Part shown: in pieces, positions 2,558 through 55,639 of the stretch
Layout of the letters: every line of letters starts with the position of its first letter
How positions within the stretch are numbered: position 1 is the stretch's first letter
Assembly (NCBI RefSeq): GCF_002158995.1
Contig: NZ_LOHF01000008.1
Coordinates: 93,593-157,592, forward strand
Source: Pseudomonas caspiana
GTDB lineage: Bacteria; Pseudomonadota; Gammaproteobacteria; Pseudomonadales; Pseudomonadaceae
Reading direction: 5' to 3'
Length of the DNA stretch: 64,000 nt
Program-made: the position numbers and the translations under genes
The notes under the pieces: generated by a model
The model's database searches: none
Told to the model about the DNA's origin: nothing
What the model saw: only the letters and a program-made list of their open reading frames with translations

Positions 2558-2845
2558 CGGGGCTCCTTGCGGATGGATTGTTTGAGCATTCATCGTATTA
2601 CAAATTAAGCCTCTCAGCTTATTTCCGCCGCCCGGAGAAGATTCTCAAATTCGACGGCGATTACCTTTACTGGCTGGAAAATAATAGCTATTGGTGGGTT
2701 ATTTCCAGAGCCTCTTAACGCTGTGCAGAGGGGGCAAATGGAAGCCTGAGCTTTCTCAAAATAACCTTCTTGAGGCTGGCTGTGGGCGCGCTGGGATGCT
2801 CTCTGTAGCGAGACTGATGTCACTCGTTGGGCCAGGTCCTAGAGA

Positions 2846-2870
2846 CGACAAAGCCCGCTCAAGGCGGGCT
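2846..2870 (-). terminator. Terminator after the serine recombinase gene
   Basis: On the minus strand AGCCCGC and GCGGGCT (forward 2852-2858 and 2864-2870) form a 7-bp GC-rich stem followed by TTTGTC. It lies about 20 bp after the recombinase stop codon. Confidence 0.6.
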
Positions 2871-2889
2871 GTGGTGACACGTATAACAA

Positions 2890-3510
2890 TCAGGCTTTCA
2901 GGTTACGTTTGACACGGTAGACAGTTGCAACACCACATCCGGCGAGCTTGGCTACGTGATCTGTACTCATGGTTGGGTGCTCTTTCAGCAGCTTAGTAAT
3001 GTCATTCCAAAGCTCAGCGTTCTTAGCCTTACCGGGGGGCGTCCAGTCTTCGTTAGCACGCTTGTTCGCCAAGCCTTGGTTGATACGCTCTACACGCTTT
3101 TCTTGGTCCAGTCTCGCCATGGTAGCCATTAGGTCAATCAACATATCGTTGATCACTTTCATGATCTGGCCTGTGATGCCCTTGTCTTCGACCATCATGT
3201 GACTGGTTGGCAAATCATGCACAACAAGGCGAAGACCCTTTGTGTCGATGGTATTACGCAGCACTCGCCAATCAGCTTGGGATAGGCGGGAGAGCCTGTC
3301 TACAGACTCGACCAGAAGAACATCCCCCGGCTGAGCTAACTCCAGCAAGCGGAGCAATTCAGGACGATTTAGCTTGGTGCCGCTGATGTTCTCGCTGTAG
3401 ATGCCAACGATGGTCAGTCCCTTTTCAGCTGCGAACGCCTCAAGTGAAATCTGAGCACGGTCGGCATGTTGATCCTTGGTCGATGCTCTGAGGTACAAAT
3501 GGGCGTTCAT
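2890..3510 (-). CDS. Serine recombinase (resolvase/invertase family), 206 aa
   Basis: A small serine recombinase of the resolvase/invertase class, which makes double-strand breaks through a serine-DNA linkage. The nucleophile is Ser10 in YLRASTKDQ. The SENISGTKLNRPEL and VESVDRLSR blocks match the catalytic domain (about residues 1-135). The long E helix follows, and the C-terminus has a helix-turn-helix (about 165-200, TDHVAKLAGCGVATVYRVKR). The length is normal for the family. AAAGGA lies 9-10 bases before the ATG. Inside a tyrosine-integrase element it may serve as a resolvase or invert a nearby segment, but I found no clear inverted repeat substrate. Confidence 0.9.
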   Translation of the reverse strand: MNAHLYLRASTKDQHADRAQISLEAFAAEKGLTIVGIYSENISGTKLNRPELLRLLELAQPGDVLLVESVDRLSRLSQADWRVLRNTIDTKGLRLVVHDLPTSHMMVEDKGITGQIMKVINDMLIDLMATMARLDQEKRVERINQGLANKRANEDWTPPGKAKNAELWNDITKLLKEHPTMSTDHVAKLAGCGVATVYRVKRNLKA

Positions 3511-29433: not shown

Positions 29434-29818
29434 GCTGCACCTCCGGGAACCGATGGGGCAGGGGGATTTGGAGTGATCTTGAACATTAATGGCATTCTCT
29501 TTGTGAGGTGGAGCTGCCAAAAACTCACTTCCACATGAGTGGGTGGCAGCTGTGCGCGGGTGTGGAAGACCGGTCAAAGAGAACCCGGCGCACCCGAAGG
29601 TGCCCCAGCACACAGCCGCCATAACACAGCCATCGGACACCTGAAGGCCCCGATGATTGGTAAAGCTTCTGTACTCTTTGAACAGCCGGGCTTCCACACC
29701 CGATCGCTGATGTGCAGCGACGGCGCGACTATAAGCCCCGATCCCGAGCGCTGCAACCCACCCAACCCCCGTCACACAAGTGCTTGAGCCCTATCGAATT
29801 TTTATCCGGCATTACGGG
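29434..29818. other. Intergenic region upstream of ffs
   Basis: About 385 bp. It contains open frames without ribosome binding sites or recognisable products, which I reject. Promoter elements for the leftward gene are not obvious. Confidence 0.4.
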
Positions 29819-29878: not shown

Positions 29879-29988
29879 GGTGACCCCATCGGTCCCCCCG
29901 CAACGATTACCCGTGAACCTGGTCAGATCCGGAAGGAAGCAGCCACAGCGGGAACATTGTGTGCCGGGGTGTGGCTGGTGGGGTTACC
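29879..29988 (+). ncRNA. ffs: 4.5S RNA of the signal recognition particle
   Basis: The RNA part of the signal recognition particle. The conserved domain IV (GTCAGATCCGGAAGGAAGCA) is intact. The ends GGTGACCCCA and TGGGGTTACC pair to close the hairpin, giving about 110 nt, close to the 114 of E. coli. It is the left edge of the island that runs to 36079. Its 3' part is duplicated at the right edge. Confidence 0.95.
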
Positions 29989-52730: not shown

Positions 52731-52856
52731 TGCGGATTTTCCTGATTATGTTTGAGCTGTGATGTATTAAAGCATTTGCGCCATTTGCATCCATCATCAC
52801 AATCGTTTGCTGGGGCTCAACGCCTCTCACGGTGAGGTCTCGTGGCAACGACGAAC

Positions 52857-52936
52857 CTGTAGGAGCGAACTTGTTCGCGAGCCGCTTAACTCGCTGTGGC
52901 AGAAAAACCGTCTCGCCAACACGTTGGCTCCTACAG
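52857..52936 (+). repeat. REPIN-like inverted repeat with CTGTAGGAGC cap, copy 4 (degenerate)
   Basis: Left part 52857-52881 and right part 52911-52936 share CTGTAGGAGCGAAC... and GGCTCCTACAG with several mismatches. It lies just after the end of the HisRS-like gene. Confidence 0.65.
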
Positions 52937-52951
52937 ATCACTCAGATCCAG

Positions 52952-53579
52952 TCAACGCAGAGCCAGGACCAGCCTCTCAAGCCCAATGCCAAAACCCGCC
53001 CCCTCTCGATAGGCACCGCCGCCGACAACTTGTTGCTGTGCGCCCAAGGCGGGGCATCGCACTTCGAAGCCATTGCCCTCCAGGTAGTAACTCAGCCCTC
53101 GTTTCACCGCCAGATTGAGTTCATAGTCGAGCCCCAGCGAGTCAAGGAAACCGATGCAAATAGCCTGACTACGCTGCAAAGCCTGCGCAGGGTCGGCACT
53201 CAGGATTTCGAGACCCAGTTGGGTGAACTCGCGGTACCGGCCAGCTTGAGGGCGCTCATATCGATAGCATCGAGCTACGTAGAAAAACATTGCTTCTTCC
53301 CGCGATCCGAGAAGTACATCGTTGCGCTCCTGAAAAAGCGCGGTTGCCTCCGGGATGAGGCAGCAGGGACGTCCGGCCTTATCATCGAAGGCCCACATTT
53401 GCCCGATTATTTCACTTCCGCCGGCCTTTTCGATAAAAGTGTCCTGACCCCATAACGCTGGAACAATCGCTTCCTCAGCTCCAGCTTCGATGAAGACAGC
53501 TCCGAAAACGGCCTTCTACTTCGCGCATGATTGCTGCTTCTTTCCCGGTTACTATTCGCGTTCCACGTAGCATTGTCAT
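52952..53579 (-). pseudogene. Short histidyl-tRNA-synthetase-like gene with +1 frameshift
   Basis: ATG at 53579 with GGAG 9 bases upstream starts TMLRGTRIVTGKEAAIMREV. At the TTTT run near 53505-53508 the frame changes. If one T is removed the reading GRFGAVFIEAGAEEAIV and on through WGQDTFIEKAGG is perfect, giving about 208 residues. Class II motif 2 (RYERPQAGRYREFTQLGLEI) and motif 3 (GAGFGIGLERLVLALR) are intact. The anticodon-binding domain is missing, so it is a catalytic-core paralog, perhaps charging a carrier or small molecule. A sequencing error is possible. Confidence 0.75.
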
Positions 53580-53604: not shown

Positions 53605-53629
53605 ATAAAAAAGGCGCCATGGGCGCCTT
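53605..53629 (-). terminator. Attenuator terminator upstream of the HisRS-like gene
   Basis: On the minus strand AAGGCGCC-CAT-GGCGCCTT is followed by six T. The perfect 8-bp GC-rich stem lies 26 bp before the HisRS-like ATG and 19 bp after the leader-peptide stop. GGUGCC in the leader (forward 53699-53704) can pair with the GGCGCC arm of the stem with one wobble, a possible antiterminator. Confidence 0.8.
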
Positions 53630-53648
53630 GGTTTTGTTCATTGAGTCG

Positions 53649-53756
53649 TCAGAACAAGTGGTTTGAGTTCTGATGAATCGATGAGCATGAGCAACCGCGG
53701 CACCTTGAGCGAGGTCCGTGATGGTGATGTCGGTTGCATGGAATAGAGTTGGTCAT
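53649..53756 (-). CDS. Histidine-rich leader peptide, 35 aa
   Basis: The minus-strand frame from ATG 53756 (AAGGA 7 bases upstream) codes for MTNSIPCNR followed by four consecutive His codons (residues 10-13), with two more His at 28 and 33, and stops at 53649. A run of His codons before a terminator is the mark of histidine attenuation. When charged His-tRNA is scarce the ribosome would stall there and the terminator would not form. It is a regulatory peptide, not expected to have another role. Confidence 0.75.
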   Translation of the reverse strand: MTNSIPCNRHHHHGPRSRCRGCSCSSIHQNSNHLF

Positions 53757-53845
53757 GGCCAATCCTTGCACAGAACCGGGAGCGCCGACAAGGGCACCTC
53801 ATTCATGACAAACCAAACATGAGAACAGTTGGAGCACGAGTACGC

Positions 53846-54283
53846 ATGACTGAATGGGACATTTTCGAAACGGAACACTGGCGAGTCAGCCATCGCCGCG
53901 ATGCACGTCATAGCGGTTACCTGATGGTCAGCTCAATCGCTGCTGCTTCGGATTTCATGGACCTCAGCGATTCAGCACTGGCCTCACTCGGCGACGTCCT
54001 GCGGCAAACCGAGCAACTTCTTTTTCAGGCCTTTGAGCCCTGGAAGGTTGTTGTCTACAAGTTGGGTTTTTCTGCAGGTTTCAATCTGCATTTTCATGTG
54101 GTTCCTGTTACGCATTCACTGTTGGCAGAAGTTGGACGGCACCCGGATTACCCTAGCGAACCTGACGGGAATGACACCATCCTTTTCTTGAGTCGCGAGT
54201 ATTGCGAGCGGGCATTGAGTAAAGAAGAGTGTGAAGTTCAGCACAAGACAGTGATTAATCTCCGGGAGCTTTACCGCGCATAA
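53846..54283 (+). CDS. HIT-family protein, 145 aa
   Basis: The active-site block FNLHFHVVPVTH corresponds to the HIT histidine triad, but the first His of the triad is Asn80, while His82 (catalytic) and His84 remain. HIT proteins cleave nucleotide phosphoramidates and aminoacyl-adenylates. ATG at 53846 with GGAG 11 bases upstream. It is divergent from the HisRS-like gene. Confidence 0.82.
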   Translation: MTEWDIFETEHWRVSHRRDARHSGYLMVSSIAAASDFMDLSDSALASLGDVLRQTEQLLFQAFEPWKVVVYKLGFSAGFNLHFHVVPVTHSLLAEVGRHPDYPSEPDGNDTILFLSREYCERALSKEECEVQHKTVINLRELYRA

Positions 54284-55427: not shown

Positions 55428-55488
55428 GTGTGACTTGACCTGAACCCCGGCGGTGCATGTCCGTTTCTGTAGGACTGCCAAACGCTTT

Positions 55489-55579
55489 CTGTATAAGCGC
55501 ACGAGCAATGCGAGGCCGCGATGGCTTTCCGCCTGACACACCGCCATCGCGGCCTCGCGTTGCTCGTGCGCTCCTACAG
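55489..55579 (+). repeat. REPIN-like inverted repeat, copy 5
   Basis: Arms 55489-55524 and 55544-55579 (36 bp with a few mismatches) around a 19-bp loop. The outer right end TCCTACAG and the left CTGTA match the same cap, with different inner sequence. Confidence 0.75.
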
Positions 55580-55639
55580 ATAGGTGTCCGCTGCGCTAAA
55601 GTGCCGTGTTAGAAGCACACGGCGATCTCCTGCAATGTC

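Follow-up and report, generated by a model that had tools for sequence, protein, structure and literature searches.

The mini-HisRS gene of Pseudomonas caspiana is not one open frame. In the window, by which we mean the whole 64,000-nucleotide stretch of DNA analysed here, the start of the protein is encoded in frame 0 and the remainder in the +1 frame, which was overlooked in the preliminary description of the locus. The break lies at a CTT-CAT codon pair behind a Shine-Dalgarno (SD)-like element, the gene is preceded by a leader with a run of His codons, an intrinsic terminator and an antiterminator strand (Table 1), and the coding sequence is under purifying selection. We put at roughly three in four the probability that the family encodes a compact HisRS-like enzyme whose expression is coupled to the supply of His-tRNA(His) at both the transcription and the translation step. 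From sequence we infer three things: shifting of ribosomes at the break, an efficiency of shifting that varies with His-tRNA, and charging of tRNA-His by the enzyme.

Table 1 Features of the mini-HisRS locus in the window
Feature	Position	Strand	Details
Leader peptide ORF	53649..53756	-	35 codons, MTNSIPCNRHHHHGPRSRCRGCSCSSIHQNSNHLF followed by stop; HHHH at 53718-53729 (His run), and two His codons outside it
Antiterminator strand	53698..53705	-	AGGTGCCG, 12 nt past the His run; partner is the terminator arm or the His-codon side
Intrinsic terminator	53605..53629	-	AAGGCGCC-CAT-GGCGCCTT and T run; also in relatives
0-frame start ORF of mini-HisRS gene	53475..53579	-	MTMLRGTRIVTGKEAAIMREVEGRFRSCLHRSWS followed by stop; ends at TGA 53477-53475
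Internal SD-like element	53500..53504	-	CGGAG; 4 nt between its end and the shift codon
Predicted frameshift site	53490..53495	-	CTT-CAT; P-site Leu codon 53495-53493, A-site His codon 53492-53490
+1-frame body of mini-HisRS	52952..53491	-	IEAGAEEAIVPALWGQDTF..., stop included; trans-frame product P0002, 208 aa

The species-level genome collection contains 72 loci, 69 of which belong to the mini-HisRS family, with hosts in Pseudomonas, Burkholderia, Paraburkholderia, Trinickia, Chromobacterium, Chitinimonas, Parachitinimonas, Andreprevotia, Massilia and one Burkholderiales MAG. A profile search across the phylum gave matches in 2 of 398 genomes, one of them the window's own, and added L139 only. 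Bacterial counts refer to the 68 loci with a readable 5′ end, namely the window, 65 loci of the genome collection and the plasmid loci L103 and L104. Left out of the 68 are L068, L096 and L099, which have no 5′ part, the unbroken L098, L108, in which the region of the site is missing, the weaker matches L100-L102 (30-42% identical), taken as ordinary HisRS, the duplicate sequences L002, L003 and L005, and two further records of the window itself, L001 and L138. L004, which is not a duplicate, carries the same cassette and also stands outside the 68. The virus relatives comprise Sinorhizobium phage Phosso and 29 IMG/VR loci, 15 on contigs of at least 250 kb; the sample omits one further phage match (H23) and most weaker matches, and in the compared stretch L128 equals L127, L118 equals L117 and L126 equals L125.

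The frame break is present in all 68 bacterial loci and in 19 of the 30 virus relatives. Bacterial genes begin with MTMLRGTRIVTGKEAAIMREVEGRF... in frame 0, an ATG stands 78 nt ahead of the P-site codon in 68/68 loci and another 84 nt ahead in 66, and frame 0 stops at the sixth codon past the P-site codon in 40 loci and at the second in 28. A recheck of 21 loci, which required (C/G)TTCAY and found it in all of them, recovered the break in 21/21, nine with sequences outside the set, and the His run in 19/21. In the 55 codons that open the +1 part, comparison of the window with the Pseudomonas loci L034, L046, L061 and L089 gives a dN of 0.008-0.032 versus a dS of 1.95-2.39, and comparison with four more distant loci gives a dN of 0.06-0.14 with dS saturated or not computable. 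Constraint is weaker in the 0-frame part, where dN is 0.09-0.26 and dS 0.67-1.26 for the same four Pseudomonas loci. The codon-phase entropy changes frame at the site: before it, the third position of the 0 frame has 1.36 bits, and after it the third position of the +1 frame has 1.21 bits (65 of the 68 loci). A programmed +1 shift almost certainly exists in this family, judging from these patterns.

The junction reads (C/G)TT-CA(T/C) in 87/87 frame-broken genes, as CTTCAT in 75, CTTCAC in 3, GTTCAT in 4 and GTTCAC in 5. In the window and the 65 collection loci the sites were found by an upstream TTY/TAC-[CA]GG pattern, for which CTT-CAY was no criterion, and in L103, L104, L105 and the phages by a CTT/NTT-CAY pair in the right frame. 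Bacteria have CTT-CAT (65/68) or CTT-CAC (3/68), and the 19 phages have CTT-CAT (10), GTT-CAT (4) or GTT-CAC (5), so that the P-site codon is CTT in 78/87 and GTT in 9/87, and the A-site codon is His in every gene. Exchange of CAT for CAC leaves His in frame 0 and puts Thr in place of Ile in frame +1. The +1 frame also constrains CTTCAT in part, since it contributes to Phe-Ile there. A control covered 64 degenerate conserved columns of the +1 part (86 of the 87 genes): every one uses more than one codon, with a top share of 86% and a median of 53%; in the five other conserved Phe columns the share of TTC is 41-86% and the wobble base varies at all of them. GUU re-pairs with UUC worse than CUU does, which makes a +1 slip less obvious at the GTT sites. 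Taken with the control, the invariance of the pair makes (C/G)UU-CAY very likely to be the place of the shift.

Upstream of the shift codon lies an SD-like element, [C/A]GGAG in the majority of bacteria; phages frequently have GGGGG or GGAGG there, as in the site CTT AGG GGG TCT CTT CAT TGA (L110). Its GG is invariant in 68/68 bacteria. In bacteria, Arg three codons ahead of the site is invariably encoded by CGG or AGG; CGT and CGC predominate at two other invariant Arg columns. For 8-mers starting at -12 to -8, the mean anti-SD energy is -5.4 to -6.0 kcal/mol in bacteria (67 of the 68, with an overall mean probably distorted by the N's in L095) and -4.8 to -8.0 kcal/mol in the 19 phages. In both groups these 8-mers have the lowest mean of the scanned stretch; near rivals are found at +71 and +162 in bacteria (-5.5) and at +113 in phages (-6.8). 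Of the later 8-mers, a mean share of 4.5% in bacteria and 7.1% in phages is equally strong. The element is about as strong as the gene's own ribosome-binding site in bacteria and stronger than it in phages; it is weak in phages L113, L125 and L126 and absent in L122.

The leader in front of the gene agrees with what the preliminary description had reported: a 35-codon peptide with an SD site (AAGGAT, ahead of the ATG), four consecutive His codons and two more. The reported geometry was likewise borne out, with 19 nt between the leader stop and the GC stem of the terminator, followed by a T run and, about 25 nt further on, the mini-HisRS ATG at 53579. By sequence, the His-run ORF and the SD-like element, seen in the window, have the make-up of a leader peptide. 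Loss of the His run or of the hairpin in relatives had been named beforehand as the finding that would speak against attenuation, and nearly all loci with a readable 5′ end show the opposite. At least three consecutive His codons, in any frame, precede the gene in 57/68 bacterial loci, for 1.98 expected from first-order Markov shuffles, and several of the remaining leaders have interrupted runs such as HHPH. The terminator stem and T run are found in 67/68, L083 being the exception. The proposed pairing of GGUGCC with the terminator arm recurs as a strand of the same type at a fixed offset: the best partner of the terminator 5′ arm begins 11-14 nt after the His-codon window in 59/65 parsed leaders, and its pairing with that arm averages -10.6 kcal/mol versus -8.7 kcal/mol in shuffles, beating the shuffle mean in 61/65.

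The leader of the window folds with a z of -4.56. With the His-codon side available, it is predicted to form a hairpin with the GGUGCC strand together with the terminator, and without that side GGUGCC is predicted to pair with the terminator arm, with loss of the terminator. A mutually exclusive antiterminator that stalling at the His codons would free is thereby found in silico. Within the main group the antiterminator cannot be proved by covariation, as arm 3 of the terminator is nearly constant. The in-frame relatives L098 and L107, whose sequences are quite different, show the same logic in other letters, with GCTGGGAG pairing CTCCCAGC. The conservation of leader and terminator, the offset of the antiterminator and the predicted fold switch support the attenuation reading of the preliminary description, and we have good confidence that the attenuator works in this way, with stalling at the His codons leading to the antiterminator and to readthrough.

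The preliminary description erred in calling the HisRS-like ORF truncated: its start and body are in different frames, and its small size is typical of the family. A shift at CTT-CAT would give a product of 208 residues, which aligns with in-frame relatives without a gap at the junction. The predicted structure has a mean pLDDT of 89.3, and one helix (residues 12-31) bridges the junction. The top 19 Foldseek matches are HisRS chains, with TM scores of 0.81-0.89 normalised by the model. The product has the catalytic core fold and motifs of HisRS; the insertion and anticodon-binding domains are absent. Scored over the +1 part only, it reaches 102.4 bits for HisRS (TIGR00442), below the cut-off of 286.75, and 45.6 bits for HisZ (TIGR00443), below the cut-off of 271.65. 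E77, R106, Q120, E124, R160, Y164, Y165 and R202 of P0002, which we take to be HisRS active-site residues, are invariant in an alignment of 11. A HisRS-like ORF of normal length (432 aa) is present elsewhere in the same genome.

Frame-broken mini-HisRS genes are carried by phages L109-L126 and L105, many of which have long tRNA arrays. A tRNA-His gene lies within 2 kb of mini-HisRS in 13 of these 19 phages, directly behind it in L109, L110, L111 and L115, and was absent from the scanned stretch of L112, L113, L122, L123, L125 and L126. Since so many of these phages have long arrays, this proximity is only suggestive. A scan of the window and of 23 bacterial loci gave no tRNA-His, and the proposal that the protein charges tRNA-His thus leans on the phage context and the catalytic residues; from these, it may well do so.

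Leader and frameshift are distributed independently enough to give every combination. The bacterial genes have both, with a full His run in 57/68. A leader without a frameshift is found in L098 (Massilia) and L107 (a Pseudomonas silesiensis plasmid), both with HHH and with terminator and antiterminator letters of their own. The 19 frame-broken phage genes have no His-run leader in the 330 nt before them, and most in-frame phages have neither feature, a His-codon triplet at -235 in L132 belonging to an unconvincing leader. (C/G)TT-CAY is absent from 11 of 13 in-frame genes over 150 nt from the ATG; in the other two, L129 and L133, it occurs only at least 101 nt from the ATG, past the place of the junction at about 78. 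A tree was built from 51 proteins: 12 in-frame ones, 19 from phages and those of 20 of the 68 bacteria, without the phage fragment L133. Every frame-broken member falls in one supported part of 41 rows, which includes the in-frame L127 and L129, and three changes of the frame-break label suffice, for example one gain and two losses. The GTT and CTT forms are intermixed in the phage part of the tree, and the His codon is constant. Two relatives look incomplete. The in-frame phage relative L133 (2911-3129) reads CGGGAGACCCTT and then CGT in place of a His codon and keeps an open frame of only 104 aa; it may be degraded or hold another break. L108 (about 2800-3100), on a Paraburkholderia caribensis plasmid, has kept the His leader and lacks the terminator, the start of the gene and the shift site; it looks like a decayed copy.

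The proposed mechanism has two steps. When His-tRNA is scarce, a ribosome would stall at the four His codons of the leader; GGUGCC would then bind the terminator arms and not the His-codon side, letting RNA polymerase read through. About 28 codons into the gene, the P site of a ribosome would hold CUU, or GUU in some phages, and the A site the His codon, with the SD-like element about 3-4 nt upstream of the P-site codon acting in the fashion of prfB. With plentiful His-tRNA, CAU would be decoded and the 0 frame would terminate within six codons, giving a dead peptide; with scarce His-tRNA, the P-site tRNA would slip from CUU to UUC, AUC or AUU would be read next, and the 208-residue protein would be made. 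As an auxiliary HisRS, the product would raise the charging of His-tRNA and close a feedback loop like that of RF2 on prfB.

Other explanations bear on different parts of this scheme. Mechanical ORF calling yields two ORFs, as would be expected of a pseudogene or of two ORFs translated separately, and the annotation of two plasmid genes (2956-3567 in both L103 and L104, named 'ATP phosphoribosyltransferase regulatory subunit') starts at a +1-frame TTG 53 nt upstream of the shift codon. A GTG or TTG in the +1 frame is available in 27/68 bacteria, and some start codon in 12/19 phages (ATG in 5). However, ATG, GTG and TTG are all missing from the +1 frame in 41/68 bacteria, and ATG is missing in all 68; the 0-frame part codes for conserved residues that in unbroken relatives belong to the single frame; and the low dN with high dS, together with the same break in every bacterial locus, leaves these readings barely credible. 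A pseudogene also sits badly with purifying selection and with the colinearity to unbroken relatives, and was rejected on dN/dS and conservation. A +1 shift four codons earlier, at TT(T/C)-CGG and unrelated to the His codon, would suit the near-invariance of that site in bacteria (TTY 67/68, CGG/AGG 68/68), and UUU-C is a plausible +1 slip. This was our initial reading, and it was dropped after phage Phosso and the wider phage set had been compared. Phages have CTC CGA, CTG CGG, TTG AGG, GTA CGA and others at the early site, whereas (C/G)TT-CAY persists; the largest variation between the two sites falls at -4, -2 and -1, none of them a wobble position of the +1 frame, and the +1-frame wobble positions 0 and +3 are invariant. 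The in-frame phage sequence TLRVTCKARGF (L127) also fits the product of the late shift, TLRVCL|IEAGF (L111), better than that of the early one, TLGCVFIEAGF. An early shift is distinctly improbable.

If the shift takes place at CUU-CAY, it could still be constitutive and set a fixed ratio of products, with the His codon kept for other reasons. The strong SD-like elements of some phages might indeed drive high shifting whatever the A-site codon. We consider a fixed ratio unlikely, given that the A-site codon is His in 87/87 genes, that CAT and CAC exchange despite the Ile-to-Thr cost, that the gene is HisRS-like and that the bacterial copies stand behind a His attenuator; a shift that senses His-tRNA is the likely reading of the same facts. 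The function of the product is a separate matter. It might be no tRNA synthetase and instead make histidyl-adenylate for another acceptor, or be a HisZ-like regulator, with the His sensors serving that role. The missing anticodon-binding and insertion domains and the weak similarity to HisZ would suit this, as would a sporadic distribution (relatives in 22 of 298 Pseudomonas genomes) and the lack of a conserved bacterial neighbourhood, the most widely shared neighbour, with gene-overlapping ORFs excluded, occurring in 9 loci. Against it stand the phage relatives, often set in tRNA arrays with a nearby tRNA-His gene as counted above, and the invariance of the eight residues taken to be those of the HisRS active site. 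A non-synthetase role is possible but rather doubtful.

A compact HisRS under two His-tRNA sensors has parallels in several known systems. Enterobacterial his operons are controlled by an attenuator with a His leader peptide, represented in Rfam as His_leader. The mini-HisRS leader resembles it in its His run, terminator and alternative antiterminator, and differs in that a stand-alone HisRS paralog is controlled and in giving no Rfam match at gathering threshold. In Streptomyces, an auxiliary, antibiotic-resistant aminoacyl-tRNA synthetase is under ribosome-mediated attenuation. There too a second synthetase is induced by shortage of its charged tRNA; that system concerns tryptophan, has no frameshift and makes a full-length enzyme. 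The leader also has counterparts in bacilli, where His leaders stand before hisS* and hisZ, as given in a section of Naville and Gautheret 2010 (PMC2965389), and thus likewise before a HisRS-family paralog. Those leaders belong to Firmicutes, the section on them mentions no frameshift, and the authors state in it that Firmicute and proteobacterial leaders have no sequence similarity (PMC2965389). The preliminary description knew of no such attenuator. The mini-HisRS locus has no Rfam match at gathering threshold (three matches lie elsewhere in the window), and leaders before hisS paralogs are described in that section on bacilli (PMC2965389). The attenuator by itself is of modest novelty, and the frameshift is what is new.

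The frameshift has a counterpart in the same genome, where prfB reads CGG GGG TAT CTT TGA C and mini-HisRS reads CGG AGC TGT CTT CAT CGA. Passages of a survey give for prfB the element AGGGGG, three nucleotides and CTTTGA, and describe unbroken prfB genes without the motif (PMC12421855). On the strength of those passages, mini-HisRS shares with prfB (RF2) the SD-like purines, a spacer of about 3 nt, the slippery codon CTT and a slow A-site codon, as well as 0-frame termination, a +1 body and unbroken relatives that lack the motif (PMC12421855). It differs in having His (CAY) instead of UGA/UAA in the A site, so that the quantity sensed would be His-tRNA and not RF2, in the GTT P-site codon of nine phage loci and in the weaker SD-like element of bacteria (GGAG). 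By this comparison mini-HisRS would work like the prfB type and is not a member of it, as the RF2 stop codon is absent from the A site. The shift at an A-site codon short of charged tRNA would also be like hungry-codon frameshifting in E. coli (Gallant), on which there is extensive work and which has been studied as a starvation effect, according to parts of a 2016 review (PMC5009743). The same parts allow that starvation-specific proteins could be made by a hungry-codon shift and add that 'no examples are known' (PMC5009743). A large frameshift survey picked its recoding set by seven A-rich heptamers, as far as its main text shows, and the word histidyl is absent from that text (PMC3711429). 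Its Table 2 holds one +1 'tRNA synthetase' cluster, with 215 genes in 81 genera, 60% with poly-AT near the shift, and the label phase variation; the table leaves the members unnamed, and the size, genera and poly-AT content do not fit the mini-HisRS family (PMC3711429). A literature search over titles and the beginnings of abstracts, with subscription journals mostly outside it, found no description of a frameshift in a HisRS-like gene.

We regard it as fairly likely that mini-HisRS is the first natural gene family whose programmed frameshift reads aminoacyl-tRNA supply, by a prfB-like +1 cassette in which a His codon replaces the stop. The cassette occurs in Pseudomonas, in relatives from Burkholderia and Chromobacterium, and in large phages that carry tRNAs; the bacterial copies stand behind a His attenuator for the same signal. 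If true, this would provide an example of a starvation-specific trans-frame protein in a host amenable to genetics, for which the in-frame relatives serve as natural controls, and would extend autoregulation of the prfB type from a release factor to an amino acid. The cassette would be a ready-made translational sensor of aminoacyl-tRNA, and one mRNA would carry two independent sensors of one tRNA. It would also rescue a gene family that is mis-started in two annotated records and could pass for pseudogenes.

Some other features of the window were seen in passing. Divergent from the mini-HisRS locus, an ORF at 53819-54283 (+) is HIT-like by eye and has no Pfam or NCBIfam match; it was rejected as a partner of mini-HisRS, being a neighbour in four loci only. 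Near the locus, at 52830-52935 and 55470-55580, are long imperfect palindromes with CTGTAGGAGC / GCTCCTACAG, REP-like by eye. Further away, a C4 antisense RNA at 29539-29734 (-) and an a1/b1 target element at 29887-29983 (+) adjoin the SRP RNA gene. C4 antisense RNAs with an a1/b1 target are known from P1/P4-type phages, and the pair beside the SRP RNA gene suggests a phage or satellite insertion there.
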